Below are positions 22,329 through 63,644 of a DNA stretch of 64,000 bases, in pieces. The translations under genes and the position numbers were made by a program. The stretch comes from Prescottella equi (GTDB taxonomy: Bacteria > Actinomycetota > Actinomycetes > Mycobacteriales > Mycobacteriaceae): NCBI RefSeq assembly GCF_020171745.1, contig NZ_JAIVAH010000003.1, forward strand, positions 1 to 64,000, in the 5' to 3' direction. The notes under the pieces were generated by a model that saw only the letters and a program-made list of their open reading frames with translations, was not told the origin of the DNA and searched no databases. Position 1 is the stretch's first letter. Each line of letters opens with the position of its first letter.

Positions 22329-23201
22329 TCAGCTACCGAAGATCGACCCGAGGGAGCCGAGCGAGCCGCTCGCAGGTTCTTCGACTGTGACCGGATCCGG
22401 CGCAACAGTCACCGTCACGTCGAGGGTTTTGGGGGTTCCGACACCGTTGGCCGCGCCGAGGGTGAAATTGAAGATTCCTGTGGTGGTGGGTGTTCCGGAC
22501 AGGGTCGGGACACCGGTGACGGGATCGTTCGCGAACGTCGTTCCAGGCGGGAGCTTCGCCGGGTCGACGACGGTGATGGTCGGGGCCGGCGTCCCAGTCG
22601 CGGTGAAGGCGCGGGTCAGTGTGGTTCCGACGGTGCCGGTCAATGCGACGGGAGCCGTGTCGTCGAACGCTGAACCGACAAGAGTGGGAATCGTAGGCGC
22701 CGGGATGGTCGCAAAGCCTGCGCTGCAGCAGCCCCCGCCACCCCAGGCCCAGCCCCCACCACTTACACGGCGCTCGAATACGAAACCATCGACCTCCACC
22801 ACCTCGGTGAGACCAGTCGCTGTGGCGTTGTTGGGGTTCCAAGACAACAAGCGAACCCAGTCGCCCTCCGCGAGGTCGGTGCGCACGACGTTGTGACACC
22901 ACATGCCGTTGCCGTAGGGAGTCCAGACGTCACCGTCCCACGTCTCGAACGTGACGTTCTCCATCCACTCGCCGTGCCAGCTGTCCTCGGGCGGGTTCTC
23001 AATCGGCTCACCCTCATTCACCTGAAAAGCAATGTTGTTCCCGTCCTTCGCGTCCGAGCAGAACTTGGCGCGGTAGGAGACCGTGGTGTCGGCCGACGCG
23101 GTACCGACCCCACCGGCGAGTGCAATGCCTGCGGTCGCGGCGAGGAGAGTGGCGGCGAAACGGCCACGCCGGATATGGCGTCGACGATCAGGTGTTGTCA
23201 C
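22329..23201 (-). CDS. Secreted protein with putative Ig-like domain and GSLGS tail
   Basis: The product is 290 aa from GTG 23201, with GGAAAGG about 10 bases upstream. Residues 1-35 are a signal peptide (FAATLLAATAGIALAGGVGTASA|DT). Residues 36-150 form a Trp-rich domain with paired Cys (KFCSDA, MWCHNV) that I do not recognise. GGGCCSAG follows. Then comes a putative Ig (He_PIG-like) repeat with LPPGTTFANDP, GVPTLSGTPTTTGIFNFTL and NGVGTPKTLDVTVTV. The protein ends in SGSLGSLGSIFGS, the same tail type as three other secreted proteins here. It is probably an envelope-exposed binding or adhesion protein, which is an inference. Confidence 0.8.
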   Translation of the reverse strand: MTTPDRRRHIRRGRFAATLLAATAGIALAGGVGTASADTTVSYRAKFCSDAKDGNNIAFQVNEGEPIENPPEDSWHGEWMENVTFETWDGDVWTPYGNGMWCHNVVRTDLAEGDWVRLLSWNPNNATATGLTEVVEVDGFVFERRVSGGGWAWGGGGCCSAGFATIPAPTIPTLVGSAFDDTAPVALTGTVGTTLTRAFTATGTPAPTITVVDPAKLPPGTTFANDPVTGVPTLSGTPTTTGIFNFTLGAANGVGTPKTLDVTVTVAPDPVTVEEPASGSLGSLGSIFGS

Positions 23202-23289
23202 AGTTGGTCTGCCTTTCCTGCAGTATCCGCTCGGGTGCGGAGCGGCCACGGAAGGCAACCGCCGCACTGAAACATAACGGACAGTCGCC

Positions 23290-23590
23290 TTTATGTATCC
23301 ACTTCAGTGCGAGCGACTCCATCAAATCCGCCGCCACCGCGACCGGCACCGCACTCTCCGCGAGGACCTGGGATACCTCCGAGACGACCCGCAGCGTCAC
23401 GTCGCCCTCGAGGCCGGCCGGGGGCCTGATCGAACGCGTCGACGAGCGTCTCGAGGTGCGCGGCCTGGACGTAGCCATCGGCACCCTCGCGATGACCGGT
23501 GGTCATCCCGAACCGCTCCGCCAACCCCGGATCCGCATCGAGCCCGGGGACGCCACCGACGTCGGATGGGCGACGGGATATGCATACGGG
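23290..23590 (-). pseudogene. Possible frameshifted gene remnant
   Basis: Two minus-strand frames give protein-like text that joins near 23430. One reads DADPGLAERFGMTTGHREGA and on to LETLVDAFDQAPGR. The other continues GLEGDVTLRVVSEVSQVLAE and on to VAADLMESLALKW. Neither has a start with a ribosome site, and the combined piece is about 95 codons. This suggests a decayed gene. The opposite strand also has one open frame here with similar third-position GC, so the call is tentative. The rest of 23202-23815 holds the promoters of the two flanking secreted-protein genes. Confidence 0.35.
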
Positions 23591-23815
23591 TGACCTACGT
23601 CGTTGCAGGCGTCGCGGCCGATCACCATCTACTCGTTCACCGGATGTGTCCAGATTTTTGCCTGCGCGCGGTCCGGCGTGCGCGGGCTCCCATTGGATGG
23701 GAGACCCCGTAGTCGGTCCCGGCCAACAGCTGCTTCTGTGATCTTCGACACCCCACGTTTCGGTTCTTCGGCACACCTGAAGTGGGGTCCCCCCCCGACG
23801 AAAGGCTTTCCCACC

Positions 23816-24574
23816 ATGCGAATCCGACCCCTTCGACTATCCATTGCGGTGATGGCGACCGCGGTCGCGGCTACAACCGCTGCCACCGGCGTCGCGTCCG
23901 CCGATATCTCCTTCGGAAGTCTCGGGGGCAGCCTCGGCAGCAGCTTCGGCAGCAGCGACGGCGAGATGGTCATCACCCTGGTGCGTCACGCCGAGTCCGC
24001 CGGTAACCTCTCCGGACTGGTCGACACCAAGGTGCCCGGACCCGATCTGACCCCACGTGGCCGGACGCAGGCAGACAATCTGGCCGTCCAGTTGGCCGAC
24101 CAGAATTTCGACTGCGGCTTCGCGTCCAACATGGTGCGTACCGCGCAGACTGCGGCACCGACCGTCGCCGAGCACCACCTGAGCCTCGACATTCAGCCCG
24201 GTTTCCGGGAGATCGAGGCAGGCGACTACGAGGGCACCCCGGAGGCCGAGGCGCTGGCCGGCTACCTACAGGCGCCGATCAAGTGGCTCTCCGGCGACCT
24301 GAACGCACGGATTCCAGGCTCCATCGACGGCAACGAGTTCGACGACCGCTTCGATCAGGCCCTGCTCGATGTGCAGCGCCGCGGCTGCACCAACCCGGTG
24401 ATCTTCTCGCACGGCGGCACCATCATGTTCTGGTCCATGATGAACGCCGACAACGCCGATATGAGCAAGCTCGGCACCGATCCGATGCGTAACGGCGGCC
24501 ACGTCACCCTCAAGGGCAGCCCGCAGAAGGGCTGGACGATTGTCGACTGGGTCGGCCACCCGGACCTCGGCTGA
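23816..24574 (+). CDS. Secreted histidine phosphatase (phosphoglycerate mutase-like) with GSLGS N-terminal segment
   Basis: The product is 252 aa. ATG 23816 has GAAAGG upstream. A signal peptide ends at GVASA|DIS. The mature N-terminus is FGSLGGSLGSSFGSSDG, a Gly-Ser-Leu segment like those at the ends of other proteins here. The catalytic domain begins VITLVRHAESAGN (RHG motif with the phospho-accepting His). The acid residue lies in FREIEAGDYEGTP, and the second His is in VIFSHGGTIMF. It should be an exported acid phosphatase-type enzyme. Its substrate is unknown. A very strong terminator follows. Confidence 0.88.
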   Translation: MRIRPLRLSIAVMATAVAATTAATGVASADISFGSLGGSLGSSFGSSDGEMVITLVRHAESAGNLSGLVDTKVPGPDLTPRGRTQADNLAVQLADQNFDCGFASNMVRTAQTAAPTVAEHHLSLDIQPGFREIEAGDYEGTPEAEALAGYLQAPIKWLSGDLNARIPGSIDGNEFDDRFDQALLDVQRRGCTNPVIFSHGGTIMFWSMMNADNADMSKLGTDPMRNGGHVTLKGSPQKGWTIVDWVGHPDLG

Positions 24575-24586
24575 TCCACCGCTTCC

Positions 24587-24627
24587 GCGCCCCGGTGCCA
24601 TCGACACGATCGATGGCACCGGGGCGC
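24587..24627 (+). terminator. Strong hairpin terminator after the histidine phosphatase gene
   Basis: The 18-base arm 24587-24604 (GCGCCCCGGTGCCATCGA) pairs perfectly with 24610-24627 around a 5-base loop. It begins 12 bases after the stop codon. Confidence 0.85.
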
Positions 24628-24646
24628 AGTCGTATCTCAGCCAGGT

Positions 24647-24960
24647 ATGCCGCGTCGCCTCGCGGTCAGCGGCTCGCACACCGCAGCGTGGCGGATGGAC
24701 GCCTGGACCAAGTGGTCCCGCGGATTCGCCGGACCGGGGGCCGTGATCGAGTCGCTGTACGGCAAACGCCTGCAGCAACTCGCGCTACCCGCGGATGCCC
24801 TGGCCGTCGCACACGGCGTCGACAGCGAGATCGCCCGGACCGATCACGTCCTGAAGATGTGGGGCGCCACGGCGCGGTCCGGTTGCACTACCGGCTGGTT
24901 CCCGTCCCCGACGTGCGCCCGATCTCGGCCACCGCCCAGGCGACAGCCGAGATCGAGTAG
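24647..24960 (+). pseudogene. Probable frameshifted ORF remnant
   Basis: From ATG 24647 the frame reads WRMDAWTKWSRGFAGPG and continues to ALAVAHGVDSEIARTDHVLKMWG. At about 24880 the sensible text moves to another frame: VRLHYRLVPVPDVRPISAT, ending in TAG at 24960. A single frameshift would join the two into about 104 codons. It sits right behind the phosphatase terminator and has no clear ribosome site. I do not recognise the family. A sequencing indel is the alternative. Confidence 0.4.
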
Positions 24961-24976
24961 GACGCCCGACCCGCCC

Positions 24977-25951
24977 TCAGAAGTGCCGGGTGAGCCAGTC
25001 GACGAGAATCTCGTTGGTGCCCTGCGGGTCCTCGAGCTGCGTCCAGTGCCCGGTGTCGATCATCCGGCGCTCGAAGGTCTCGAAGTACTGCAGCAGGTTG
25101 TCGGTGAGCATCGGGTGGCAGATCGGATCACGACGCGCCGCGACCAGCAGCGCGGGAACCGCGACCTTGGGCACGACGCCGTCCGGGAACAGCTCGGTGT
25201 GCACCTCCCAGTTGCGGATGATGCTGTGGTACCAGCTCAGTCCCCCACCGAATCCGGTGCGTGCGTATGCGTCTGCGTAGTAGCGCATCTCGTCGGAATC
25301 GAGGACAACCTCACCGGGCCACGTCGACTCGTCGTCGGCGAGCCAGTGGATGTAACTCATCGACTCGGGGTCGTGCTTGCCGGAGCGGGACAGGTTGGTG
25401 CCTGATCCGGTGTCGCGTCGCATGAAGAAGCGGAAGGTGCGCTCGGCGTCCTTGTCGAGCAGTTCCTCGCACTCGGGAGTCTGGAAGTGCGCCACGTAGT
25501 TCCGTGGGCCGTACGCCTGCTCGTACTTCTCGATGGGGTTCTCCCGCGAGTACCCGAACGGGGTGTTGAGCGTGATCACACCGGCCACCGAGTCGGGCTG
25601 CAGGTAGGGCATCATCCACGACACCATGCCGCCGAAGTCGTGTCCCACCACGACGGCCTTCTCGTAGCCGGCGTCCGCGATGAGGCCCGCGACGTCGGCC
25701 GTCGTCTCGGCGATGCTGTAGGCCCGGCGGTCGTCCGGCCCGGTCGACTGCCCGTAACCGCGCATGTCGGGGGCCATGACATGGAAGCCGGCGTCGGCGA
25801 TCGGCTCCAACTGGTGCCGCCACGACGCAGCCAGTTCGGGAAAGCCATGGCACAACACGACGCACACGTCGCGGGTGACGCGCTCGGGCACGGCCTCGAA
25901 GACGGCGAGGCGGACACCGTTGGTGTCGACGAATCTCGGTTCGGGAAGCAT
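24977..25951 (-). CDS. Epoxide hydrolase-type alpha/beta hydrolase
   Basis: The product is 324 aa. HGFPE (about residue 35) is the oxyanion motif typical of epoxide hydrolases. The nucleophile Asp is in VVGHDFGGMVSW, and the catalytic His is in DTGHWTQLEDP near the C-terminus. The family opens epoxides to diols through an ester intermediate. GGAAGGA precedes ATG 25951. It is the last gene of a minus-strand unit with the MFS transporter 18 bases upstream, then alcohol dehydrogenase and a flavin monooxygenase. The order suggests that the monooxygenase could make the epoxide. Confidence 0.9.
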   Translation of the reverse strand: MLPEPRFVDTNGVRLAVFEAVPERVTRDVCVVLCHGFPELAASWRHQLEPIADAGFHVMAPDMRGYGQSTGPDDRRAYSIAETTADVAGLIADAGYEKAVVVGHDFGGMVSWMMPYLQPDSVAGVITLNTPFGYSRENPIEKYEQAYGPRNYVAHFQTPECEELLDKDAERTFRFFMRRDTGSGTNLSRSGKHDPESMSYIHWLADDESTWPGEVVLDSDEMRYYADAYARTGFGGGLSWYHSIIRNWEVHTELFPDGVVPKVAVPALLVAARRDPICHPMLTDNLLQYFETFERRMIDTGHWTQLEDPQGTNEILVDWLTRHF

Positions 25952-25969
25952 TGCGAAAGTCCTTCCGGT

Positions 25970-27433
25970 TCAGTGGGCGTGGGAAGCAGCGGCCCGCTCG
26001 AGCCGCGGGACAGCGAGGGAGACCAGTGCGCCGATCGCGGCGGCGCCCGCCGCGATCAGGAACGCACCGCGGAATCCGGCGGATTCGTAGGCGACGCCGT
26101 GGCCGTCGGTGGCCACCACGTAGTGCGCGAGCACCGTGAAGCCGATGGTGGAGATCAGGGTGCCGGCCAGGGTCTGTGCGACGCCGACGAAGTTGGATCC
26201 GACGGCGCGCTCGGTCTCCGGGAGCGCGAGCAGCGCCAGGTTCGGGACGGCCGCGTAGATCATGCAACCGAGGCCGAACACCACCCATGCGAGCACGATC
26301 ACGGCCGGAACGGTCGGGACCGCGGACAGCACCGCGGCGGCGATCGCGATGAACACCGCGCCGAACACCAGGTGGTTGCGGAAGCCGATCGACTTCGCGG
26401 TGGCGCCGACGATGAATCCGCTTGCGACGATCATCAACTGGCCGGGCAGCAGCCAGCCGGCCATCTCGGTCGCGGACAGACCGAATCCGTAGGGCGTGCT
26501 CTCGGGGGCCTGCAGCAGCATCGGGGTGAGGCTCGCGAGCAACGTGGTCGCGCCGTACGCGATGCCGCCACCGATGAGCGTGTACCTCAGGGCCGGTTTG
26601 GCGATGAGGTCGAGCCGGATCAGCGGTTCGTCGGTACGGCGCTCCCACCACACCCAGACGGCGAAGCCGACCAGCGCGACCGCGACACACGTGAGCGTGC
26701 GTCCGTCGGTCAGGCCCCACTCCTTGCCGCGGGAGAGGCCGACCATGATGACGAACATGCTGAACGCCAGCAGCACCGCACCGAGCCAGTCGATCCGCGC
26801 GTGCGAGCGGATCGGGGTCTCCGGCACGAAGAAGAACGTGAGCAACGCGCCGATCGCGCAGAACCCGAACGCGAACCAGAACACCGACCGGACACCGAGA
26901 TGATCGATCAGCACACCGGCGACGAGCAGCGCCCCGACTCCGACGGCGCCGACACCGGTGTTCGCGATGCTGATCGAGATCGGCTGCAGCCGCGGCGGGA
27001 ACGTGTCCCGGATCAGCGTGTATCCCAGTGCGAGGCAGGCGAAGCCCGCACCCGACAGGAAGCGGCCGGCCACCAGGACGGGGAACGTCGGTGCGGTAGC
27101 GGATATCAGCGCCCCCAGCGCCCCGATCGCCGCGGTGACGACGAGCATCCTCTTCTTGCCGTAGAGATCGGCGAGCTTGCCGATGATGGGCGACGCGACC
27201 GCGCCGGACAGCGTGAAGGCCGTCATCACCCACACCACCTGCGTGGTCTGGAACTCGGCGGCGACCTTGGGCAGCGTCGGCGCGAACAGCGAGAAGCCCA
27301 GCGCGGACTGCTCGGTGAGGAGGAGCAGGATCAGGAGGGTGCGCACCCAGTACCGGGTGGGCCGCTCGTTCGCATCCGCCGGCACCCGGCCGGCGCGTTG
27401 TTCATCCGGTCCGTCATTGGTCCGCAAAGACAT
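25970..27433 (-). CDS. MFS transporter, 14-helix drug:proton antiporter type
   Basis: The product is 487 aa, with about 14 hydrophobic helices. Between the second and third helices lies GKLADLYGKKRM, the conserved MFS loop motif. The segment GRFLSGAGFACLALGYTLIRD matches the fifth-helix antiporter pattern. GAGG lies upstream of ATG 27433. It lies between the alcohol dehydrogenase and epoxide hydrolase genes on the same strand. It could import the substrate or export a toxic intermediate of that pathway. Direction cannot be read from sequence. Confidence 0.88.
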   Translation of the reverse strand: MSLRTNDGPDEQRAGRVPADANERPTRYWVRTLLILLLLTEQSALGFSLFAPTLPKVAAEFQTTQVVWVMTAFTLSGAVASPIIGKLADLYGKKRMLVVTAAIGALGALISATAPTFPVLVAGRFLSGAGFACLALGYTLIRDTFPPRLQPISISIANTGVGAVGVGALLVAGVLIDHLGVRSVFWFAFGFCAIGALLTFFFVPETPIRSHARIDWLGAVLLAFSMFVIMVGLSRGKEWGLTDGRTLTCVAVALVGFAVWVWWERRTDEPLIRLDLIAKPALRYTLIGGGIAYGATTLLASLTPMLLQAPESTPYGFGLSATEMAGWLLPGQLMIVASGFIVGATAKSIGFRNHLVFGAVFIAIAAAVLSAVPTVPAVIVLAWVVFGLGCMIYAAVPNLALLALPETERAVGSNFVGVAQTLAGTLISTIGFTVLAHYVVATDGHGVAYESAGFRGAFLIAAGAAAIGALVSLAVPRLERAAASHAH

Positions 27434-27496
27434 GAATACCTCGCTCAGATGAGTAGGGACAGAACTGGATCGGACTCCGCCGAAAACCGGCGGGCA

Positions 27497-28582
27497 TCAC
27501 ATCGAGGCGACGCCTCGGGGCAGGACCATGATCTTGACGTGGTCGTCGGGGGCGCGGAGGGCGTCGAACGCACCCGCCACCCCGTCGAGATCGACGCGGC
27601 CGGTGATGATCGCGTCGGCGTCGATCACTCCGGACGCGAGGCGCTCGAGCACGATCTCGTAGCCGCGTTCGGTGGGCCCGTGCCCGAAGTTGATCGCGAG
27701 GCGACGCAACTGGCCGATCACCGGGATGATCGTCTCGTCGGCGAACGGTGCCGCGAGGACCTGGATCCGCGAGTCGTAGGGCAGATTTCGCAGGAGCGCG
27801 TCGAGCATGCCCTTGCGTCCGCTGCACTCGTAGGCGATGAGGATTCCACCGCCGCCGCGCTCCGGGTCGTTGTGACCGTCCGCGACCATACGGTTCCACA
27901 CCTCGATGGGATCGTCGGAGGTCGGGTCCACGACGACGTCCGCACCCATCTTCAGCGCGAGTTCCCGCCGTTTGGGCGACGGCTCGGACGCGATCACGGT
28001 GTGCGCACCGCGCGCCTTGGCCGCGACGATGGCACCGAGACCGATAGTGCCGCAGCCGATCACCAGCGCGGAGTCGGTGGCGGCGAGTCCCGATCGCTGC
28101 ATGTGCAGCTCGCCGACGTGCAACGGCTCCGCGAGTGCCGCATGCTCGAACGACAGCCCATCGGGAATGTGCCGAACCCAGACGGCGTCGACGACGATCT
28201 GATCACCGAACCCGCCGTGATACGTGTTCGAGTACCCGATGATCTTCGGAATACCCGTGGAGGTGTCGGTAACGATTCCGAGGCCGGCCACCCGATCGCC
28301 GACCGCGAAATCGATTACCTCGGGCCCGACCTCGGCGACCACGCCGGCGTACTCGTGCCCGAGGACGACCGGTCGACCGTGGTCGAAGGTGGCGAGCGGG
28401 TATCGCGCGGCGTCGATGACGTCGACGAACCGGCACGGGTCCTTCGACACGCTCAGGTCGCTCCCGCAGATGCCGCACGCCATCACGTCGATCCGCAGCT
28501 GTCCGGGACCGAGGACGGGGAGGTCGGCAACATCGGCGAGCGTGAACTCGCCCTGATGGAACTGGACAGCGCGCATGGTCAT
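27497..28582 (-). CDS. Zinc-dependent alcohol dehydrogenase (MDR family)
   Basis: The product is 361 aa. CGICGSDLSVSK holds the catalytic zinc Cys, GHEYAGVV the conserved Glu and GCGTIGLGAIVAAKARGA the NAD-binding fold. The usual four-Cys structural zinc lobe is replaced by a different loop, so only the catalytic zinc is expected. ATG 28582 overlaps the stop of the monooxygenase gene (ATGA), so the two are translated together. It would oxidise the alcohol produced by the flavin monooxygenase or a diol. Confidence 0.9.
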   Translation of the reverse strand: MTMRAVQFHQGEFTLADVADLPVLGPGQLRIDVMACGICGSDLSVSKDPCRFVDVIDAARYPLATFDHGRPVVLGHEYAGVVAEVGPEVIDFAVGDRVAGLGIVTDTSTGIPKIIGYSNTYHGGFGDQIVVDAVWVRHIPDGLSFEHAALAEPLHVGELHMQRSGLAATDSALVIGCGTIGLGAIVAAKARGAHTVIASEPSPKRRELALKMGADVVVDPTSDDPIEVWNRMVADGHNDPERGGGGILIAYECSGRKGMLDALLRNLPYDSRIQVLAAPFADETIIPVIGQLRRLAINFGHGPTERGYEIVLERLASGVIDADAIITGRVDLDGVAGAFDALRAPDDHVKIMVLPRGVASM

Positions 28583-29763
28583 GCCCCCGTCTGCGCGGGC
28601 GCGCCGTAGTAGTCGGTCCGCGCCTTCTCGAGTGCACCGACGAGGTTGCCGATGAGGTACTCGCGGTTGTCCTCGGCGAACTGCAGACTCGCCTGTCGCC
28701 GGACGTTGCGCCGACGGAAGTGGGGCACCACCTCCGATGCGAACAGTTCGTAGCTGCGCTTGGTGTCCTCCCAGTTCGCCATGTCGACGTGCAGGATGAG
28801 CATCGTCCCGAAGCCGCCGGTCTTCTCGATCAGCCGCTCGATCTGCGCGATGGCCTGATCCGGGGTGCCGATGATCGCCTGGCCGAACTCGCCGAGCGAT
28901 TCGTGACGCCAGTGCTCGATGACGCCCTGCGGGGTCTCGCCCCACACCGGATAGCGGCCGTTCTGACGATTGGCGTAGTAGGCCATCGACTGGATGCGCC
29001 GACTGACGGCACGCTCCGCATCGGCCTGGGTCTCGGCGAGAAACATCGGATTCACGACGCGCCACGTCGACCGGTCAGCGGTGTGCCCGTGCTCGGCCGA
29101 CACCTTCTCGTAGATCGACCAGTTCCGGTCGAGCGCATCGAAACCGGACGGCGAGCTGGCCGCCAGCGACAGCAGCGACAGCCCGTTCGTGCCGGCGAGC
29201 ACCGACCCGTTGGGCGAGATGGTCGAGGCGGTGACGACCTCGATGCCCGCGGGATCGTAGGTGGGTAGCTGCGCGCGGGCGTCGCGCAGCGTGAACCAGT
29301 CCGTCTCCATGTTCACGATCTCGCCGCGCATGAGCGGGAGGATCGCCTCGAGTGCTTCTCCCTGTCGACGCCGCTGGTCGCGGGGATCGATGCCCATCAT
29401 GTGCGCGTCCAGCGGGATCTTGCCCGGCCCGGTACCGAAGATGACCCGCCCGCGGGTCTGCAGGTCCAGCTGCATCATTCGGTCGACGGTGATCAGTGGG
29501 TGGTGGTACGGCAGCGACACCACCCCGGTGCCGAACCGGATCCGCTCCGTGCGCTCGGCCGCCGCGGCGATGAACACCTCCGGGGACGGCACGATCTCGG
29601 CGCCCGTCGAGTGATGCTCCCCCATCCACGCTTCCTCGAACCCCAGGTGATCGAGGTGCTCCATCAGGTCGATGTCACGCCGAAGTTGCAGGGCCGGATC
29701 GGCGTCGAGGGGGTGGAACGGAGCCAGGAAGGCCCCGAATTTGATGGAGTCCGGTGTCCACAT
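28579..29763 (-). CDS. Luciferase-like flavin monooxygenase
   Basis: The product (394 aa) is a bacterial luciferase-type TIM barrel. WMGEHHSTGAEIVPSPEVFIAAAAERT and RIRFGTGVVSLPYHHPL are family hallmarks. IGTPDQAIAQIERL is the late flavin-site motif. ATG 29763 has AGGAG upstream, which decides it over the extension to 29805. Homologues are often named limonene 1,2-monooxygenase, and an epoxide hydrolase in the same unit would suit an epoxidation, but the substrate is not proven. It is the first gene of the four-gene unit. The palindrome AAACACGTGTTT lies 62 bases upstream. Confidence 0.87.
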   Translation of the reverse strand: MWTPDSIKFGAFLAPFHPLDADPALQLRRDIDLMEHLDHLGFEEAWMGEHHSTGAEIVPSPEVFIAAAAERTERIRFGTGVVSLPYHHPLITVDRMMQLDLQTRGRVIFGTGPGKIPLDAHMMGIDPRDQRRRQGEALEAILPLMRGEIVNMETDWFTLRDARAQLPTYDPAGIEVVTASTISPNGSVLAGTNGLSLLSLAASSPSGFDALDRNWSIYEKVSAEHGHTADRSTWRVVNPMFLAETQADAERAVSRRIQSMAYYANRQNGRYPVWGETPQGVIEHWRHESLGEFGQAIIGTPDQAIAQIERLIEKTGGFGTMLILHVDMANWEDTKRSYELFASEVVPHFRRRNVRRQASLQFAEDNREYLIGNLVGALEKARTDYYGAPAQTGA

Positions 29764-29825
29764 GTCGTCTCCTACCTCGTTGGTACGTCGAACTTCTCGA
29801 CGCACCGAGGTCTATCAAAGATTTG

Positions 29826-29837
29826 AAACACGTGTTT
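29826..29837. promoter_or_regulatory. Palindrome AAACACGTGTTT upstream of the monooxygenase operon
   Basis: This perfect 12-bp palindrome lies in the promoter region of the luciferase-like monooxygenase gene, flanked by TTTG and GAAT. It resembles KstR sites only loosely (the half-site spacing differs). The TetR protein encoded at 31038-31673 is a candidate ligand. Confidence 0.5.
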
Positions 29838-29893
29838 GAATTCTGGCGATTCGGGTCGACCGTCTCCCGCTCAGTGGGCCCACCGACACAGAA

Positions 29894-29930
29894 GCCCGCC
29901 CCTCGATCACGGGCTGATCGAGGGGCGGGC
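29894..29930 (-). terminator. Hairpin terminator after the esterase gene
   Basis: GCCCGCCCCTCGATCA at 29894-29909 pairs perfectly over 16 bp with 29915-29930 around a 5-base loop. On the minus strand it lies 24 bases beyond the esterase stop. Confidence 0.8.
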
Positions 29931-29953
29931 GAGAACGAGCCGGACGAGCGGCG

Positions 29954-30898: not shown

Positions 30899-31037
30899 CG
30901 CAGGCTCCTGGAGTCTCGGAACGGCACATGATCAGCGATGACGCTGCAGTTCGACAAGATCCAGGGTAGAAACGGACACCACCGCTCAGAACCGGTCCGC
31001 CCACCGAGCGGGACGGTCGCGGGACACCGGGCGATCG

Positions 31038-31673: not shown

Positions 31674-31736
31674 GCGGAGAGCGTAGCCGACCACCGCGGA
31701 CCCCCTTCGGCGCAGGGAATCCGCGGCAATCGGCCA

Positions 31737-34798: not shown

Positions 34799-34829
34799 CT
34801 CCCAGCTCGACTCCGAGAGGACATCGCAC

Positions 34830-53305: not shown

Positions 53306-53311
53306 GCCGAG

Positions 53312-55344: not shown

Positions 55345-55467
55345 AGCCAAGGCTCACTCCCGCCGCCGGCGAAGGAGACCGAACGGTCATTCGTATGCCA
55401 GAATGACCGCCGCTCGGGCTGTCGTGACGCGCACGTCGGCCTACCGAGCGGATTGAAGAGGAACGAA

Positions 55468-56904
55468 ATGAATCGTCGGTTCGGCCTGCTCGGCCGTGGA
55501 CCGCGTCGCTCGGTGATTGCGGCGGCGGCACTGTCGGCAGCGGCGGCGCTCGCGCTGTCCGGTTGTTCGTCACCGGAGGCCGACGCGACGGGACCGTCCG
55601 ACGCCGCAGTCGAGACGGTCGTGACCGGGGAGGCGCTGGATTCACCGACCGCGCTGGCGATCCGACCGGACAGCACCGAACTGTGGGTCACCAATGCCGG
55701 CAACGACTCCGTCACCGTGATCGACACCGCGGTCGCAGGCTCGGCCAAGATGATGCAGGACAGCTACGGCGAGCACTTCACGGCACGGCCCTCGGGCATC
55801 GCCTTCACCGACGACGGCGGATACTTCGCGGTGTCGAACAACTCGAACAACGAGGTGCGCGGGATGGAGTTCAAGCTCAATCCCGAGCGCGAAGCCCACT
55901 TCAAGGGCAACAACTTCATGGGCCCGACGTTGTTTTCCACCAGCACCTTCGCACTCGCCGGCCAGAGCAAGCCCTACATGGCGGACTGGCCGCAACCGGG
56001 CATCAGCCACGATCCGCCGGACGACACCCCGCAGAACCAGTGCCCGTCCGAGTACTGGTCCGACGCGACCGCGCGCTGCGTGTGGCCCCGCCAGGGCAGT
56101 CACCTCGACATGCTGCACGGCAACCCGCTCGGCACCGGCATCCTGCACGACGAGGTCAACGCGTTCTTCATCCTCGACGGCTGCGGCGTGCACGACGCGG
56201 CCAACGAGTGCCAGGGCCCCGGCCACGTGGCGCGCGTCGACTTCAACCGGGACCACCAGGAGGGCAACGGCTTCCACGGCGACGGCACCACCAAGCGCTA
56301 CATCGATCTGCCGTACCAGCGGGTGGACGACGTGCCCAGCGGCATGTTCGAGCACGACGGCTGGGTGTACTACTCCGACACCGGTGCCGGTGTGGTTCGA
56401 CGGTTTCAGCCCGACAGCGGAACCACCGAGGTGATGGTCGAGAACTGGAACGACTCCCCCGCGAGCCACGGTGAGCACGGGCCCGGCGTCATCGACTGGA
56501 GCCACATCGAGAACGGCCCCGGCGACGGGGACGATCCTGTCACCGTCGATGCATGGGTCGAGCGACGCGGCAACCACGCCGCCATCGCCGCGGCCGGGGA
56601 CAAGTGGATCCGCCCGATGGAGACGCTGTCCGAGTACTCGTACGTGTGGAACGCGACCCGCGAGGACGCCAGCCCTGCGGGCGCAGTCGAGCGCCCGGCC
56701 GGCCTGGCCGCGGGCGCGGATTCGTGGTTCGTCGCGGACAACGCGTCCGGCCGCATCGTCGAGTTCGACTGGAGCGGAAAGCAGCTGCGAGTCCTCGAAA
56801 CCGGAAAGAGCGGACTCACCGGCCTCACGATCACGCCGGACGGCAAGACACTCTACTTCTCCGACGCCGCAACCGACGGGGTGTTTCGGCTCGCGCTGAG
56901 CTGA
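55468..56904 (+). CDS. Beta-propeller lipoprotein
   Basis: The product is 478 aa. GAGGA lies upstream of ATG 55468. The lipobox LALSGC makes it a lipoprotein. SPTALAIRPDSTELWVTNAGN and LTGLTITPDGKTLYFSDAA are YVTN/NHL-type propeller repeats at both ends. The middle has Cys-rich loops (NQCPSEYWSD, CVWPRQGSH, CGVHDAANECQGPGH) and many His/Asp/Trp residues that could bind metal. I do not recognise a more exact family. Its 3' end overlaps the convergent kinase-like gene by 52 bases. Confidence 0.85.
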   Translation: MNRRFGLLGRGPRRSVIAAAALSAAAALALSGCSSPEADATGPSDAAVETVVTGEALDSPTALAIRPDSTELWVTNAGNDSVTVIDTAVAGSAKMMQDSYGEHFTARPSGIAFTDDGGYFAVSNNSNNEVRGMEFKLNPEREAHFKGNNFMGPTLFSTSTFALAGQSKPYMADWPQPGISHDPPDDTPQNQCPSEYWSDATARCVWPRQGSHLDMLHGNPLGTGILHDEVNAFFILDGCGVHDAANECQGPGHVARVDFNRDHQEGNGFHGDGTTKRYIDLPYQRVDDVPSGMFEHDGWVYYSDTGAGVVRRFQPDSGTTEVMVENWNDSPASHGEHGPGVIDWSHIENGPGDGDDPVTVDAWVERRGNHAAIAAAGDKWIRPMETLSEYSYVWNATREDASPAGAVERPAGLAAGADSWFVADNASGRIVEFDWSGKQLRVLETGKSGLTGLTITPDGKTLYFSDAATDGVFRLALS

Positions 56905-57485
56905 CGCACCGAGAGTACGAAGTCCGCGGAATCGACCGCCGCCGCGACCCGCGCCACCGTCGCGTCCACGTCGAGGCCGCCGGTATCGAGGGCGTGCTTC
57001 TCGAGGACGCCGAGGTCCGCGAACTGGCGCCACATCTGCGTGATCGGGGCCGGATCGGTGAGCGCGTCCGGCCCCGTTCGCGCCATCGCGCGCGCGATCG
57101 TCGTGGCCTGATCCGGCCGAAGGACGACGTAGTGGCGCGTGGCGTGCACGTCGTCGCTCCCTCCCGGGGTGAAATGGCCGAGCATCCACGGGCCGACGAT
57201 TCCGTCGACGATCGTGGTGAATCCGCCCCGCGCGTATCCCTCGGCCGCGGCGGCGATGACACCCAGCACCGTCTGGTTCTGCTCGTCCGCCTCCACCAGG
57301 TACGGCGGTACGCCGCCGCTGACGATGGCGTGCCAGAAATCATCCGTGTGGAGGTGCACGGCCTTGGGGTATTGCCTGGCGAGCCGCCGTGACACAGCGC
57401 TCTTGCCAGCACCGGGCGGACCCGTCACGATGACGATCCGACCGGGAGCCGAGTCCGCATTCACGGGCCCACCGTAGCTCGGCAT
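56853..57485 (-). CDS. P-loop kinase-like ATPase
   Basis: The product is about 210 aa from ATG 57485 (GTG 57464 is the alternative). IVIVTGPPGAGKSAVSRRLA is the Walker A segment. LHTDDFWHAI has the Asp-Asp pair typical of small-molecule kinases of the AAA_33/shikimate-kinase type. HYVVLRPDQATTIARAM follows the usual lid region. It probably phosphorylates a small molecule or acts in antibiotic modification. The substrate is unknown. Its last 52 bases overlap the tail of the lipoprotein gene. Confidence 0.85.
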   Translation of the reverse strand: MPSYGGPVNADSAPGRIVIVTGPPGAGKSAVSRRLARQYPKAVHLHTDDFWHAIVSGGVPPYLVEADEQNQTVLGVIAAAAEGYARGGFTTIVDGIVGPWMLGHFTPGGSDDVHATRHYVVLRPDQATTIARAMARTGPDALTDPAPITQMWRQFADLGVLEKHALDTGGLDVDATVARVAAAVDSADFVLSVRQLSASRNTPSVAASEK

Positions 57486-57582
57486 TCGTCGGCCTGTCTT
57501 GCCATTATTCGGCATCCGACCTCGGTCGGAAATCGCCTCGTCGCGACCGCGCCGACGTCGGTGGGATGATGGCCTGGTGCCG

Positions 57583-58542
57583 ATGCCTTCACCGCTGCCC
57601 GTCCGAGACGGGGTCGGGCCGACGCGACTGCGGGTCCCGACGTCCGGTCCGTGGGCGACGATCGCCGAGTACGTGATCACGAGATTCGACCACCTGGACG
57701 CGGACGACCTGTACCGACGATTCGACGCCGGCGAGATCGTGGGCGCCGACGGCGGCCCGATCGGCCGCGACACGGCGCTCGGCGACCAGGTGTTCGTCTG
57801 GTACTACCGCGACCTGCCGGTCGAGGAACCGATTCCGTTCCGGGAGGAGATTCTGCACGTCGACGACGACCTCGTCGTGATCGACAAGCCGCACTTCCTG
57901 CCGACCACCCCGGGCGGGCGCTATCTGCGGGAGTCCGCGCTCGTCCGATTGCGGACCCGGCTCGACAACCCCGATCTGACGCCGATCCATCGGCTCGACC
58001 GTGCGACCGCCGGCCTGGTGATGTTCTCGGCTCGTCCCGCGACGCGCGGCGCCTACCAGTCGCTGTTCGAGAAGCGTCGGGTCGCCAAGGTCTACGAGGC
58101 GGTGTCGGCACTACCGGCCGAGTGGAACCCGGACGCACCGGCGCTGGCCGGTCACGCCGTTCCCGTGGTGTACCGCAACCACATCGAGGCCCGACGCGGT
58201 GAGCTGCGGGTCGTCGTCGACGAGTCCCGCGAACCCAACTCCGAGACGCTGATCGAGGTCCGGGGCACCGGGATGAGCGCCTCCGGACGCGCTGTGCTGC
58301 ACACGATCCTGCGCCCGCACACCGGACGGATGCACCAGCTGCGGGTACACCTGTCGGCACTCGGCGTCGGGATCCTCGGCGACAGTTGGTATCCCGACCT
58401 GCTGTCCGAGGCACCGGACGACCACGCCCTCCCACTCCAATTGCTCGCGCGGGAACTGGAATTCACCGATCCACTGTCGGGTGCACGGCGGCGCTTCGTC
58501 ACCGAGCGGACGCTGAGCGAGGCGCCCGAAGCGGAGCTCTGA
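57583..58542 (+). CDS. RluA-family pseudouridine synthase
   Basis: The product is 319 aa from ATG 57583 (GTG 57577 is possible). The catalytic Asp is in PIHRLDRATAGLVMFS. LHVDDDLVVIDKPHFLPTTP is the family's entry strand and HTGRMHQLRVHLSALGVGILGD the late motif. It isomerises uridine in rRNA or tRNA. The N-terminus lacks a convincing S4 domain, so it is the short RluA/TruC-like type. Confidence 0.92.
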   Translation: MPSPLPVRDGVGPTRLRVPTSGPWATIAEYVITRFDHLDADDLYRRFDAGEIVGADGGPIGRDTALGDQVFVWYYRDLPVEEPIPFREEILHVDDDLVVIDKPHFLPTTPGGRYLRESALVRLRTRLDNPDLTPIHRLDRATAGLVMFSARPATRGAYQSLFEKRRVAKVYEAVSALPAEWNPDAPALAGHAVPVVYRNHIEARRGELRVVVDESREPNSETLIEVRGTGMSASGRAVLHTILRPHTGRMHQLRVHLSALGVGILGDSWYPDLLSEAPDDHALPLQLLARELEFTDPLSGARRRFVTERTLSEAPEAEL

Positions 58543-58758
58543 CACGCGGCACTGCCTGGCCACGTGCACTCGAGGCCGCCGGCGACACCGTGACCCGCGG
58601 CGCACCGTTCGGCGAGCGTCGTCGGGCATGTCTTCACTCCGTGCACGTGAACACGCGCACCGTGCACCCGCAGAATCACCCCTCAAAACTGCCCGATAGG
58701 TCGACACTGCCCACTACAGTCGCCGGGACCCCCCACGGAACCTCAGGGAGAAAACGGA

Positions 58759-59262
58759 ATGCGCAAGTCCATCGCTGCCGGCGTAGTCGCAGCAGCATCG
58801 GTAGGAATCGTCCTCGGCGGCAGCGGAATCGCCTCCGCAGCATCCAAGACCATCCCTGCGGGGACCGGGTTCTACTACGTGAACACCGACATCCGGCCCG
58901 GCATCTACACCACCGAAGGTGCACTCGTCGACGGAGACCAAACCTGCACCTGGGTACGCGGAACGATGAAAACGCTCCGTATGGAACCGATCGCATCCGG
59001 TATGACCAAGGGCCCGACCACGGTGAAGATCGAGGACACCGACGACGTGTTCATCACCTCCGGGTGCGGTGAGTGGACGCGCGAGACCCAGCTGGACGGC
59101 GGCTTCCTCCATTCGCTGTTCGGCTCACTCGACTTCGGCTCCCTGACGGATGGCCTGGTCGGATCGCTCGAGGTCGGTTCCGCAGCAGGGTCGCTCGGCG
59201 GTTCCCTCGCCACCGGTTCCATCGTCAACGGATCACTCGCGAACGAGTCGCCCGGCTCCTGA
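58759..59262 (+). CDS. Secreted protein with GSL-rich C-terminal tail
   Basis: The product is 167 aa. CAGGGAG precedes ATG 58759, with TACAGT (-10) upstream. The signal peptide ends at GIASA|AS. The core (residues 30-105) has IPAGTGFYYVNTDIRPGIYT and a Cys pair (TCTWVRG, SGCGEWTRE), like small actinobacterial secreted beta proteins. The last 50 residues are HSLFGSLDFGSL, VGSLEVGSAAGSLGGSLATG and NESPGS. The core should fold as a disulfide-bonded domain, while the tail looks unstructured. Function unknown. Confidence 0.85.
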   Translation: MRKSIAAGVVAAASVGIVLGGSGIASAASKTIPAGTGFYYVNTDIRPGIYTTEGALVDGDQTCTWVRGTMKTLRMEPIASGMTKGPTTVKIEDTDDVFITSGCGEWTRETQLDGGFLHSLFGSLDFGSLTDGLVGSLEVGSAAGSLGGSLATGSIVNGSLANESPGS

Positions 59263-59274
59263 TCTCGGCAACCG

Positions 59275-59296
59275 GCCCGTCGCGCATGCGGCGGGC
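59275..59296. terminator. Bidirectional hairpin between convergent genes
   Basis: GCCCGTCGC at 59275-59283 pairs with GCGGCGGGC at 59288-59296 (one G-U pair) around GCAT. It lies between stops at 59262 and 59309. Confidence 0.6.
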
Positions 59297-59308
59297 TTCG
59301 ACCCGACG

Positions 59309-60697
59309 TCACACCCGTGAACGGAAATCCGCGGCGAGTTGTGTCACGGTCTCGGCCGCGCAGCCTCGGTTGTCACCGACACCACCGGACGCGCCTCGCT
59401 TCGCCCAGCCGACCACGTACAGCCCCTCGAGCGGTTCTCCGGTCTCGTGGGAGATCACCTGTCCGCCAAGGTTCGGCACGACGCCGCGGGCGCCCAGCGG
59501 GACTCCGTCGATCGGTTTGGTGGTGAATCCGGTGGCACAGATCGCAGAGTTCGTGTGGAAGGTCCGGCCGGCGGTCGTGGTGACCGCGACGACACCCCGG
59601 TCGGTCGCAGCGAGGCCTGCTACCTCCTGCCCGAACGACAGGACGATGCGCAGGGGTCCCACTGCACCGGCCGGAGCGGGGGGCACCCCGCCGACATCGG
59701 TGGCGGGCAGACGCGACAACGCACGCAGCAGCGGGCTGTCCGCGGCGGCGCTGGGTGCGCTGCCGGCGCGATCGATCAGCACCTCGGTGTGGTCGAGGTC
59801 GAGAAGCTCGTAGAACGCCGAGGGCGTGAAGGCGGCGCCGTCCGCGGCCGACCGCGACAGGATCACAAGTTCGCGGAGTTGTTCACTCGCGGGCACCCGG
59901 TCGCGGGTCTTCGCGGCCCACCGGACGACATCGAAGGCAACGTTGCCCGCGCCGATCACGACGCACCGTGGTCCGGCGGGCGCGGGCGGCGGGAAGGTGC
60001 CGCAGTTCTCCGCGACCAGGATGTCGATGGCCTGACGGATCTCGTCACCGGCACCGGTGGACGCGATCCGGCGAGGCTGCGAGGCTCCGCAGGCGAGGAT
60101 CACGGCATCGAATCTCGTTCGCAGCTCGTCAATCGAGATATCCACGCCGACTTCGGTTTCGGGAACAACCGTGACGCGGTCGTCGCCGAAGGGCACATCG
60201 AACAGCCGGATCATCTCGCGCACGCCGACGTGGTCCTGGGACACGCCTCGGTGCAGCAGTCCCCCGATCGTGTCGTGCTGCTCGTAGACGGTGACGCGGA
60301 TCGACGACGACCGCTGCAGGAGCTCGCGAACGGTGTACATCGCGGCCGCACCCGCCCCCACCACGGCGATCTCGCGTCGGTCAGTGGGGCGGGCCAGCGG
60401 CAACTCGAAGACTGCGCGCGGCCGGGTGCGCGGCGCCGCGGGTACCTGCGCGAAGAACTCACGGTTACGCGCGGCGTACGGGAGTTCGGTCGAGGTCAGT
60501 GCGTGCTCGGGTTTGATGGCCGAGGCCGGGCAGGCCTCGACGCACGCGGTGCAGTCGATACACGAATCGGGGTCGATGTAGAGCGTCTCGGAGGACATGA
60601 AGCCGTCCTCGCCGGGGGCGGGATGGATGCAGTTCTGTGGGCACACCCGCACACACGAGGCGTCCTTGCAGCAATGTCCCAGGATGACATGGGCCAC
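59309..60697 (-). CDS. Ferredoxin-fused NADPH:ferredoxin reductase (FprB-like)
   Basis: The product is 462 aa from GTG 60697 (AGGAG six bases upstream). The N-terminal domain is a 7Fe/8Fe ferredoxin: CCKDASCVRVCPQNCIHP and CIDCTACVEACPAS. The reductase follows with AVVGAGAAAMYTVRELLQR for FAD and VVIGAGNVAFDVVRWAA for NADPH, then VGWAKRGASGGVGDNR, the adrenodoxin-reductase-type motif. The layout is that of M. tuberculosis FprB, here shorter. It sits 12 bases after an AurF-like diiron oxygenase gene and is its likely electron source. Confidence 0.92.
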   Translation of the reverse strand: MAHVILGHCCKDASCVRVCPQNCIHPAPGEDGFMSSETLYIDPDSCIDCTACVEACPASAIKPEHALTSTELPYAARNREFFAQVPAAPRTRPRAVFELPLARPTDRREIAVVGAGAAAMYTVRELLQRSSSIRVTVYEQHDTIGGLLHRGVSQDHVGVREMIRLFDVPFGDDRVTVVPETEVGVDISIDELRTRFDAVILACGASQPRRIASTGAGDEIRQAIDILVAENCGTFPPPAPAGPRCVVIGAGNVAFDVVRWAAKTRDRVPASEQLRELVILSRSAADGAAFTPSAFYELLDLDHTEVLIDRAGSAPSAAADSPLLRALSRLPATDVGGVPPAPAGAVGPLRIVLSFGQEVAGLAATDRGVVAVTTTAGRTFHTNSAICATGFTTKPIDGVPLGARGVVPNLGGQVISHETGEPLEGLYVVGWAKRGASGGVGDNRGCAAETVTQLAADFRSRV

Positions 60698-60709
60698 GAC
60701 GACTCCTAG

Positions 60710-61597
60710 TCAGAGAAGGTTCGACTTTCGGTAGACCCATCGGGCGCCGGGATTGAGCAGTCCTTCCTTGCTCATGAATTCGATGAACGGCTCGGCGGCC
60801 CTCCGGAACATCATCCGATGATGTTCGTTCCCATCGATGTTCGCCTTCACGACGTCCCAGTCGAGGCCGAGATCGTCGTACACCCGGCGATTGATCAGGC
60901 TCCTCGCGATGAGGTGCATGCCGGCCGCGATGGTCAGGGTGCTGACGAATCGCCTGAAGCGGGAGCGTCCGACCAGGAGATCACGGATCTTCCGACGCGC
61001 GAACGCCATGTGCCGGGACTCTTCGACGACGTGAATGTAGGCGGACCGGCGGATGGGTGCGGCGACGTCGTCGCTGTTCATCCAGTCGCGTTGCATGACG
61101 TCGAAGACCTCCTCGCCGGCGAGGACGATTCCGTATGCGACTTCGTCCCAAGCGATGTGGCGGAACACCCAGCCGAAGAAGTCCACCGAGCGGTCGCGCG
61201 GATAGAAGTGGGACCCGATGCTCTCGACGGCATTGGCGAACATCAACGAGTGCAGGTTCTCGTCCGCGCATTCGTTGAGGAGGAACTTGACGTCCGGTCG
61301 TGCCGGATCCGCGCTGTGGCTCGCCCTCAGCAGAGCCACCTGCAGGCCCACTTCGAGCCAGATGCCGATGCCCAGGAAATGCGCGACCTCGCACCTGGTG
61401 AGCCGGACCCGCTCCGACTCGGACATACCGTCCCACAACGGGGTTCCGTAAAGGGGCGACCACTGCGGTGTCATACCGTGGCGTTCGTCGTCGCCGGGTT
61501 CGGACTGGTAGACCAGAGGACTTCGCGAATCGAACGACAACCGCCTGGCAGATTCCAAAAGGGTCTCGAAAATTGCGTCGCTTTCGGAACCTGCCAT
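60710..61597 (-). CDS. AurF-like diiron oxygenase
   Basis: The product is 295 aa. Iron ligands fit TRCEVAHFLG (Glu), CADENLHSLMF (Glu and His), LAGEEVFDVM (Glu) and VVEESRHMAFAR (Glu and His), the pattern of AurF-type N-oxygenases. AurF oxidises aminobenzoate to nitrobenzoate. This protein's substrate is unknown. GGAGGAG lies about 10 bases before ATG 61597. It heads a two-gene unit with the ferredoxin-fused reductase, which would supply electrons. Confidence 0.88.
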   Translation of the reverse strand: MAGSESDAIFETLLESARRLSFDSRSPLVYQSEPGDDERHGMTPQWSPLYGTPLWDGMSESERVRLTRCEVAHFLGIGIWLEVGLQVALLRASHSADPARPDVKFLLNECADENLHSLMFANAVESIGSHFYPRDRSVDFFGWVFRHIAWDEVAYGIVLAGEEVFDVMQRDWMNSDDVAAPIRRSAYIHVVEESRHMAFARRKIRDLLVGRSRFRRFVSTLTIAAGMHLIARSLINRRVYDDLGLDWDVVKANIDGNEHHRMMFRRAAEPFIEFMSKEGLLNPGARWVYRKSNLL

Positions 61598-62780
61598 CGT
61601 GCCCTACTCCTCCGATCACCGTGCCGCTGTGGACACGGGGGTGCCCGAGCTTCCACTCGTACGGGCATGGAACCACACGTTCGGGGTGCTGTCGCGACGG
61701 AGCGGCGCCTCGAACATCGACAGCGGTTCGCTGTCGACATCATGCCGGCAGAGCGTAACCCGAATCACACCGATCGAGGGCATGCCTGGCCGATGCAGAC
61801 GAGAGAACGGCGAGCGCACTGCGAGCAACGGCGTTGATCAAACCTCTGACCAGTGGATCCAGAAGCTGGGGCGGAACGCGAGCAGGTGGCCCGATGCACC
61901 GGCACCTGTCGCGGCACGTCGTTTCGAGCTTTACGAGCACTTGACGGTAACCAGGGATCAGCTCGAGGATCCCGATGCGATCTTGAACGAGGCGCGCCCC
62001 AGCGGCGGCCTGATCACCGGCGCCGACATCGGCCGCATTCAACAGCGCCGCGCAGCATGCCTGACGCCGTCGTCGCGGAGAGCCACGTCGAGACACTCCG
62101 AATTCTCCAGATATCATGGGCCCGAACATGTTCCGGCAAGCTCGAGACCCAAACACTCGATTCTCCGCAGCTGCGCGGCCCGGCCGCCGACCCGCTAGCA
62201 GCCATCGGCGAAACCGACTGCACAGCAACCGGACTCGCGTTCACCCCACCCATCAGTCCCGGCACCTTCACGCCACACCTCGCCGGGCGTCACGCACCCG
62301 CGCCGCCCTCCGCGCACCCCTGGTTTCGACCCGCCCCGAAGCACCCCCGTCGGCGTGACCGCCTCTGGCGACGGGCGACTGCCCAGAAACCACCGGGCGA
62401 CCCGATCGACGCAGCTCCTACGAAGGCAGGAGATCACCTCCTCCGAAAGTAGGAAACATGCTCCAGAGCAGCCCTTTCTTCCCGATCCCCGCGCGCCCCC
62501 GTGCTACATCTACACACCGAGCCCAATCCAACGAGTTTATAAAGACCGACCAGTCTCCTTGATATCTGTCGGTTGATTGTCTACCGTCGGGACGGTCGCT
62601 CGACTGTTCATCGACATGAGCAGAGAACGACGCCTGTGACTTATGGGGGCCACAGGGGGTTGCGTCGGCTGTTGCGACAGTGCAGACGCTTGTAATGACT
62701 TGAAGACATCGAGGCGGGACTTCCACATTCCCGCCCCGACGTCGAACCGTGTCCGCGACTCCCAACGAGGTGAGTGAAGT
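61598..62780. other. 1.2-kb region without a confident gene
   Basis: No frame has a ribosome site and a consistent protein text. A plus-strand stretch at about 61900-62090 reads RRFELYEHLTVTRDQLEDPD and on to GGLITGADIGRIQQRR, which may be a remnant of a decayed gene. A TATAAAG at about 62538 followed by ACCGAC...GTCGGT arms (about 62545-62573) may be promoter and operator of the secreted protein at 62781. The rest looks non-coding. Confidence 0.45.
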
Positions 62781-63644
62781 ATGTCCAAGAACGCATTCCG
62801 CATCGGCTCGGCCGCTGCGATCATCAGCGCCGCCGCGCTCGTCGTGCCCGCGCTCGCCGGAGCCGAGCCGACCGGATCCCTCGGCTCACTCGGCTCGAGC
62901 GACGCATCGACCGGATCCGCAGGCTCGCTCGGTTCGAGCGAGGTTTCGGAAGGAGTTGCTTGCGAGCAGCTTTCGACCGAGAACACCCCCAACGGGTGGG
63001 GTATCCCGTTCGAGGACGAGAAGCGACAGGTCGCCTACTACACCGCCGAGAATGTGCTCGACACCGACGGCGCCCTGAAGCTCGAGGTCGAGAGCACTGC
63101 CAACAGGTCGGTCAGCTACCGCGAGGCCGGCGGCATCAAACTGTCCGACGCCATCAAGAAGGAGATCGGCTTCTCGGAGTTGGCCGAGAATCCGACCGCT
63201 TCCTTCCAGCTGCGGCTGACCGGCACATTCGAGAACGAGAAGTTCCCGGACAACGGTTTCACCACCCTGGTCTGGGTGCCGGACGAGAACGCGGCCAATA
63301 CCTCCGAGGGCGGCGTTCATGCCAACCTGCAGAACGGAAAGTGGTGGAGCACTTCGAACATCGCGGGAGCAACCGGCCGCGCACTCGTGCCGCTCACCGA
63401 GATTGCGGCGGCCAACCCGAATGCGGTCGTCGACCACTACGGCGTGAGCATCGGACGCGGCCTCCCGGCCACCTCGACGCTGGTCGACGCCGTGAAGTTC
63501 AACGGCTGCACCACCAACTTCGCCAAGAACGATCCGGAGCCTCCGGCCGAGGAGTCGACGGGCTCGCTCGGGTCGCTGGGCTCGCTCGACCTCTTCGGCT
63601 CGCTCAGCACCGGTTCACTGGACACGGGTTCGCTCGGCTCCTGA
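62781..63644 (+). CDS. Secreted protein with GSLGS segments at both ends
   Basis: The product is 287 aa. GAGGTGAG lies about seven bases before ATG 62781. The signal peptide ends at LAGA|EP. The mature N-terminus is TGSLGSLGSSDASTGSAG. A globular core (residues 57-255) has one Cys near each end (VACEQLS, FNGCTTNF), likely a disulfide, and a jelly-roll-like strand pattern (ASFQLRLTGTFENEKF, TTLVWVPDENA, GKWWSTSNI). The C-terminus is STGSLGSLGSLDLFGSLSTG and ends GSLGS. I do not recognise the core. It ends 60 bases before a terminator. Confidence 0.85.
   Translation: MSKNAFRIGSAAAIISAAALVVPALAGAEPTGSLGSLGSSDASTGSAGSLGSSEVSEGVACEQLSTENTPNGWGIPFEDEKRQVAYYTAENVLDTDGALKLEVESTANRSVSYREAGGIKLSDAIKKEIGFSELAENPTASFQLRLTGTFENEKFPDNGFTTLVWVPDENAANTSEGGVHANLQNGKWWSTSNIAGATGRALVPLTEIAAANPNAVVDHYGVSIGRGLPATSTLVDAVKFNGCTTNFAKNDPEPPAEESTGSLGSLGSLDLFGSLSTGSLDTGSLGS

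Follow-up and report, generated by a model that had tools for sequence, protein, structure and literature searches.

Gly-Ser-Leu segments on unrelated exported proteins of Prescottella equi as candidate acceptor tags for protein O-mycoloylation

A set of exported proteins in the genome of Prescottella equi (5.49 Mb, GC content 68%) carries segments rich in Gly, Ser and Leu, built on GSLGS-like repeats or closing on a C-terminal FGS, and attached to cores that are otherwise unrelated. We refer to them as tags. The starting point is the window, by which we mean the whole stretch of DNA analysed, bases 1-64,000 of contig C3 (NZ_JAIVAH010000003.1), beginning at contig base 1. In a sample of about one fifth of the genome the tags are strongly concentrated in exported proteins, and to judge from their sequence they are, on balance, probably acceptors for protein O-mycoloylation. 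How proteins reach the mycomembrane and stay in it is an open question on which the tags bear. The available text of two studies gives no known acceptor sequence for protein O-mycoloylation (PMC11066868; PMC5310785), and whether insertion into the mycomembrane requires specific machinery is called unknown in that of a third (PMC12632848).

Genes were predicted with a simple codon-based caller trained on clear genes, which called 59 in the window. A protein was counted as tagged when it held at least four GS dipeptides per 30 residues; a second measure was based on hydrophobic-GS triplets. The first-pass annotation had assigned signal peptides and tags to five genes of the window, and this assignment stands. 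All five are open and coding, all five proteins pass a crude signal-peptide test, and their maxima are 8, 4, 4, 6 and 7 GS per 30 residues (genes at 22329-23201, 23816-24574, 58759-59262, 62781-63644 and 1-2580, in that order), against at most 2 in the remaining 54 genes. Its description of the tags as GSLGS-type is too narrow for the 1-2580 protein, which matches nothing in Pfam or NCBIfam and has GSL-x(n) repeats without the literal pentamer. The cores do differ, as it had claimed, but the libraries name only two of them, the histidine phosphatase (PF00300) and the NF053833 protein, and the Ig-like label proposed for the 22329-23201 protein finds no support in Pfam or NCBIfam. The predicted structure of the 62781-63644 protein, made from four sequences, is poor (mean predicted local distance difference test score, pLDDT, of 44) and supports nothing about its tags.

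Together with 59 further stretches of the same genome, the window gives a sample of 1,198,860 bases and 1069 genes, divided into 220 exported, 178 membrane and 641 cytosolic ones and 30 whose 5' end is open. At least four GS per 30 residues are found in 17 exported and 2 membrane proteins and in none of the cytosolic or 5'-open genes, making 17 of 19 matches exported; the other two are the 1-2580 protein and L060, a surface protein whose C-terminus holds a membrane helix, both of the membrane class. After shuffling of residues the mean number of proteins at this threshold is 0.2 exported, 1.0 membrane and 0.2 cytosolic. Outside the window alone, the counts are 13 of 207 exported, 1 of 170 membrane and 0 of 604 cytosolic. 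One cytosolic protein passes the triplet measure, and by either measure 20 of the 220 exported proteins are tagged versus 3 of the 819 others (Fisher p 1.5e-11). A signal of the kind proposed in the first-pass annotation should not be equally common in cytosolic proteins and should exceed shuffled sequence; both expectations are borne out in this genome. The exported class is diluted, because the crude signal-peptide test lets in some cytosolic enzymes, an SDR-like protein in L049 being one. Four motif matches look false by eye and were kept in the counts (amidase-like L064, penicillin-binding-protein-like L066, ligase-like L055 and regulator-like L051). The first two belong to the 13 exported matches outside the window, and dropping them leaves 12 tagged proteins in 1.13 Mb, which by proportion gives a rough estimate of 60 in the whole genome.

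When masked cores are compared by blastp, the 28 proteins that have a tag or end in FGS form 21 clusters, or 17 once the four false matches are removed. The cores include two mycolyltransferases (PF00756, with PDB matches to Ag85C and Cmt1; loci L056 and L070), a tyrosine phosphatase (PF13350), a PhoD phosphatase, a beta-lactamase-family protein, an NlpC/P60 protein (L083, GS-rich, though its called start shows no convincing signal peptide), a six-member cluster (Big_3_5 in the member tested), a DUF7507 protein, a DUF11/choice-of-anchor-D protein and several unnamed ones. Their 22 tag stretches, in 19 proteins, lie variously after the signal peptide, internally or at the C-terminus. Internal tags look inserted, as in the L070 mycolyltransferase and in PhoD, where the tag sits inside the PhoD_N domain after the LWTR strand and homologues show a different, untagged loop (22 readable of 29 loci, own locus excluded). 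Computed without the 1-2580 protein, which supplies more than half of the tag residues (700 of 1178), the composition is Ser 31%, Gly 28%, Leu 14%, Ala 9%, Asp 4% and Arg 0.4%, with no Lys at all, and suggests flexible segments. On the same basis both serine codon families, TCN and AGY, are used in 15 of 19 tag stretches, thus the motif is kept as protein. Chance or composition as the source of the tags is ruled out by this codon mix together with the shuffles.

Such GS-rich segments could also be read as flexible spacers or sticky low-complexity stretches, spanning the wall or mediating self-association with no enzyme acting on them. The long repeats of the 1-2580 protein, and those ahead of the membrane helices of L057 and L060, would suit this role. 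It is nevertheless an unlikely explanation of the set: a C-terminal tag has nothing behind it to space, some tags lie within enzyme loops (L070, L074), and, unlike in plain GS linkers, Leu is abundant and Phe recurs before the last GS.

The C-terminal end shows the same concentration. A terminal GS is found in 14 of 218 exported, 1 of 172 membrane and 3 of 622 cytosolic proteins of the genome sample, and FGS directly at the stop in 9 exported proteins and in none of the 794 others. Six related secreted adhesin-like proteins ending in FGS are encoded at L075 (C33:1-20000), and the member tested has Big_3_5 Ig-like domains. In Rhodococcus erythropolis NBRC 15567, a 12.7 kb stretch (L114) encodes proteins ending in SIFGS, in LFGSS (signal peptide not found at the called start) and in NIFGS, the last a homologue of the 62781-63644 protein. 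As a DNA pattern, GSL-x-FGS-stop occurs 4 times in the P. equi genome against 0 in the control and in 9 of 121 genomes of the family, with a single control match in all; the pattern is narrow, allowing one spacer length and TCN serines only. A strictly C-terminal end on exported proteins of several genera is what one would expect if the tag, above all GSL-x-FGS-COOH, were a sorting or insertion signal for some mycomembrane machine, with no acylation involved. We regard this as quite unlikely, since a reader of C-termini would miss the many N-terminal and internal tags, and no insertion machine is known, the very need for one being called unknown in the available text of PMC12632848.

We return to O-mycoloylation as the probable function. 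The tags are position-independent and nearly uncharged, they can end in F-G-S, and one of them overlaps mapped mycoloylation sites; for these reasons we favour a Ser-modification, and this one specifically. According to the available text of PMC11066868, sites mapped in Corynebacterium glutamicum are on Ser, with Thr about one ninth as often, lie in flexible and often clustered positions among Ser, Gly and Ala, and follow no strict consensus. The tags likewise hold Ser in a clustered context rich in Gly, Ala and Ser, and by the crude signal test the tagged set shares the export of O-mycoloylated proteins. PorH of C. glutamicum ends in 54-NFSS-57 and is mycoloylated on S56 of its 57 residues, and PorB also ends in NFSS (PMC5310785); ProtX is mycoloylated on its penultimate Ser (PMC5310785; PMC12632848). 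In FGS the Ser is last and not penultimate, so the match to PorH and ProtX is close rather than exact.

The overlap concerns Cmt1, which has mapped sites at S281, S284 and S296 (PMC11066868, Table 1) and whose region 280-305 is disordered in the free enzyme (PMC11927696). The tag of L070, an Ag85-like mycolyltransferase, falls over Cmt1 281-296 in a MAFFT alignment, between the residues matching Ag85C 219 and 228, and eight other aligned mycolyltransferases lack most of this segment (Cmt1 numbering was checked on S189, E310 and H341 and on the three sites). The tag is full in genus relatives L115 and L116 and reduced in L117, and none is present in any loop read from other genera, a comparison that left out several loci, L121 among them. 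Because gap placement is uncertain in this poorly conserved loop, the overlap is suggestive and not proof. At least two of the 12 mycolyltransferase-like matches in the genome, L056 and L070, are tagged. The L102 protein (C13:448501) scores 238 bits with Cmt1 versus 158 with PS1 and 102 with Ag85A (44% identity), and by these scores the host has a Cmt1-type enzyme; from its group and genes it would also produce mycolates. Cmt1 orthologues occur in Nocardia and Rhodococcus (PMC11066868).

We infer that the tag serines are acylated by such a Cmt1-like enzyme, which would anchor the proteins. An exported protein would emerge via Sec or Tat, and its flexible, nearly uncharged Gly-Ser-Leu stretch, whether it follows the signal peptide, lies in a surface loop or forms the C-terminus, would enter the active site of a Cmt1/MytC-type mycoloyltransferase. 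The enzyme would move a mycoloyl group from trehalose monomycolate to one or several tag serines, and the attached lipid would help to keep the protein in the mycomembrane. Any core might thus become anchorable by gaining a tag.

A different modification of the same residues, protein O-mannosylation, is very improbable. One protein of the genome exceeds the cut-off of the PMT family. Actinobacterial mannosylation prefers stretches rich in Thr and Pro, and compared with the remainder of the proteins that bear them (again without the 1-2580 protein) the tags are depleted in both, Thr at 2.3% against 11.0% and Pro at 2.1% against 6.3%. For want of Thr/Pro-rich acceptors, O-mannosylation was rejected as the principal interpretation.

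Conservation was followed in other genomes, where genera and families are given as codes (g1 is the genus of the window; f12, f14 and f15 are other families). Homologues of the 62781-63644 protein occur in 23 of 121 genomes of the family. Most of those in the 30 stretches compared retain Gly-Ser stretches, or an end of the FGS type, at one terminus or both, with a core identity of 31-44% in most other genera and 64-66% in g23. A few, such as L023, have little or no tag; among the loci compared, L031 probably holds no genuine homologue, and the starts of L036 and L037 were not included. A literal GSLGS DNA pattern proved useless (control 434, real 321). The stricter GSLGSLGS gives 175 matches against 61 in the control for g1 (14 genomes, 13 above control and one equal), 16 against 60 for the 28 genomes of g29 and mixed counts for g23, and is noisy beyond the genus. 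Five g6 genomes (G409, G446, G455, G517 and G532) have 7-16 matches, nearly all on one strand, unlike other g6 genomes, which perhaps reflects a single long repeat gene. Five genomes of f12, f14 and f15, sampled in 20 stretches, have tags on 0 of 66 exported proteins, a distribution that favours O-mycoloylation, and the P. equi genome differs from these (p 0.010) as well as from other genomes of its family (p 0.018). In a search of 121 genomes, strong mycolyltransferase matches were found in all 15 family genomes sampled (best E 1.7e-58 or better), and 18 other genomes gave weak ones (best 4.1e-33), which we read as ordinary esterases. Three of the five control genomes, G131, G188 and G220, belong to these 18, G134 has no match and G299 lay outside that search; their three families are presumably devoid of mycolates. 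A GC-rich simple repeat that expanded neutrally would agree with the low complexity and with tag lengths that differ among orthologues. This reading is scarcely credible: the export bias already speaks against it, with no match at four GS per 30 residues among the 641 cytosolic genes sampled, and so do the mixed Ser codons and the Gly-Ser ends kept on such diverged cores.

Several observations weigh against O-mycoloylation as the function of the tags. Across 11 other genomes of the family, sampled in 40 stretches, only 3 of 139 exported proteins reach four GS per 30 residues, a single one apiece in g23, g13 and g4, as does one cytosolic protein of g4; no exported protein from the sampled stretches of g22, g27, g29, g3, g9 and g31 reaches it. 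By either measure the count is 3 of 139 exported versus 4 of 575 others (p 0.14), and an export bias beyond the genus is not established. Two g3 genomes, taken for Corynebacterium, have no tag among 15 exported proteins, so a tag is not required for mycoloylation in that genus. Six of the nine FGS ends come from one paralogous cluster, which reduces them to four unrelated families, and GSL-x-FGS-stop has matches in no more than 2 of the 8 genomes of the genus that were searched. Some tags, in the 1-2580 and L057 proteins, are far longer than an acceptor needs, and the presence of a Cmt1-like enzyme by itself predicts nothing about tags. In the literature covered, as far as its available text goes, mycoloylation is proven only in Corynebacterium, with no report found in Rhodococcus; in C. 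glutamicum, mycolate does not always decide the placement of a protein, as PorA inserts without it (PMC11927696), and for PorH assembly it suffices that one of PorA and PorH is modified (PMC12632848). The first-pass annotation suggested that the tags share one signal, for sorting, for anchoring or for modification of Ser, which might be directed to the mycomembrane; of these options, the features found here point to Ser-modification. Being rare in the other family genomes sampled, without significant tie to export there and unseen in g3, the tags are no universal mycomembrane signal.

No description of such tags was found in the literature, most subscription papers lying outside the search, and what is new is probably a dedicated acceptor tag for an already known modification. 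A broader proposal, plausible though falling short of probable, sees in the tag a portable zip-code for the mycomembrane that works at any position: a GSL repeat, preferably ending in FGS-COOH, by which exported enzymes and adhesins, dozens of them and unrelated to one another, are singled out for O-mycoloylation. The tag and not the core would then be the substrate, lipid anchoring would be general in Rhodococcus-type bacteria, and this would be the first recognisable acceptor sequence. If true, mycoloylated proteins could be predicted from genomes, the modification would extend beyond Corynebacterium, and there would be a simple means to anchor proteins on the rhodococci used in biotechnology.

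Table 1. Tagged genes and tag segments of the window.
Feature	Position	Strand	Remarks
Secreted low-complexity protein, 860 aa, GSL/GSG/LGS repeats	1..2580	-	Cut by contig end; repeats ~7-2178
Secreted protein, core unnamed by libraries, C-terminal tag GSLGSLGSIFGS	22329..23201	-	
C-terminal tag of 22329-23201 protein, FGS directly before stop	22332..22367	-	
Secreted histidine phosphatase, tag right after signal peptide	23816..24574	+	PF00300, E 1.9e-30
N-terminal tag GSLGGSLGSSFGS of histidine phosphatase	23915..23953	+	
Secreted Rv1352/Rv1906c-domain protein, C-terminal tag	58759..59262	+	NF053833, 2.2e-17
C-terminal tag of 58759-59262 protein, 46 residues, end SPGS	59122..59259	+	
Secreted protein, unnamed family, tag at each end	62781..63644	+	
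N-terminal tag of 62781-63644 protein	62874..62936	+	
C-terminal tag of 62781-63644 protein, end SLGS	63561..63641	+	
3' end of secreted protein, runs on into L009; internal Gly-Ser tag just beyond window	63788..64000	-	

The protein at the window's right edge, listed last in Table 1, is presumably beta-propeller-like. Rhodococcus sp. OK519 has two copies of a relative (L112:2495-3508, without an NCBIfam match, and L112:11023-11445) beside its homologue of the 62781-63644 protein, one of the two copies apparently shortened.

Among known systems, the PE_PGRS proteins of mycobacteria also carry a Gly-rich low-complexity region on mycomembrane proteins. They differ in their PE domain, for which the five window proteins gave no match at E up to 1, excluding PE_PGRS as the main explanation, whereas the tags are of Gly, Ser and Leu and many of their cores are ordinary enzymes. 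Sortase (LPXTG) substrates resemble the tagged proteins in the surface anchoring of unrelated cores, and the genome has three sortase matches. Unlike them, the tags may be internal, and the L057 and L060 proteins end in a helix and basic tail without LPXTG. A sortase signal was rejected as the main explanation, as none of the 15 exported or membrane proteins ending in GS has LPxT[GA] or LxxTG in its last 60 residues. The L057 protein (L057:95-3889, minus strand) is a large DUF11/choice-of-anchor-D surface protein whose GSL repeats precede the helix and tail, and roughly 650 bases separate it from one of the three sortase matches (C10:4535-4966, L239); sortase may thus anchor some tagged proteins as well, although LPXTG was not seen. 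The C. glutamicum porins PorA, PorH, PorB and PorC together with ProtX, modified by Cmt1/MytC, resemble the tags in placing the acceptor Ser in a flexible uncharged context. PorB and PorC have Ser-rich N- and C-terminal regions as the tags do; the acceptor of PorH and ProtX is penultimate, and PorH and PorB end in NFSS where the tags end in FGS (PMC5310785). The porins share no motif, whereas here a repeated GSL motif is found across enzymes and adhesin-like proteins, with the modification predicted. The O-mycoloylome of C. glutamicum, like the tagged set, is made up of unrelated exported proteins with clustered Ser, including mycoloyltransferases and hydrolases (PMC11066868). Cmt1 itself is modified there, at the sites over which L070 has its tag, and while the available text of that study reports no consensus for C. 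glutamicum, the tag would give another genus a sequence that can be recognised.

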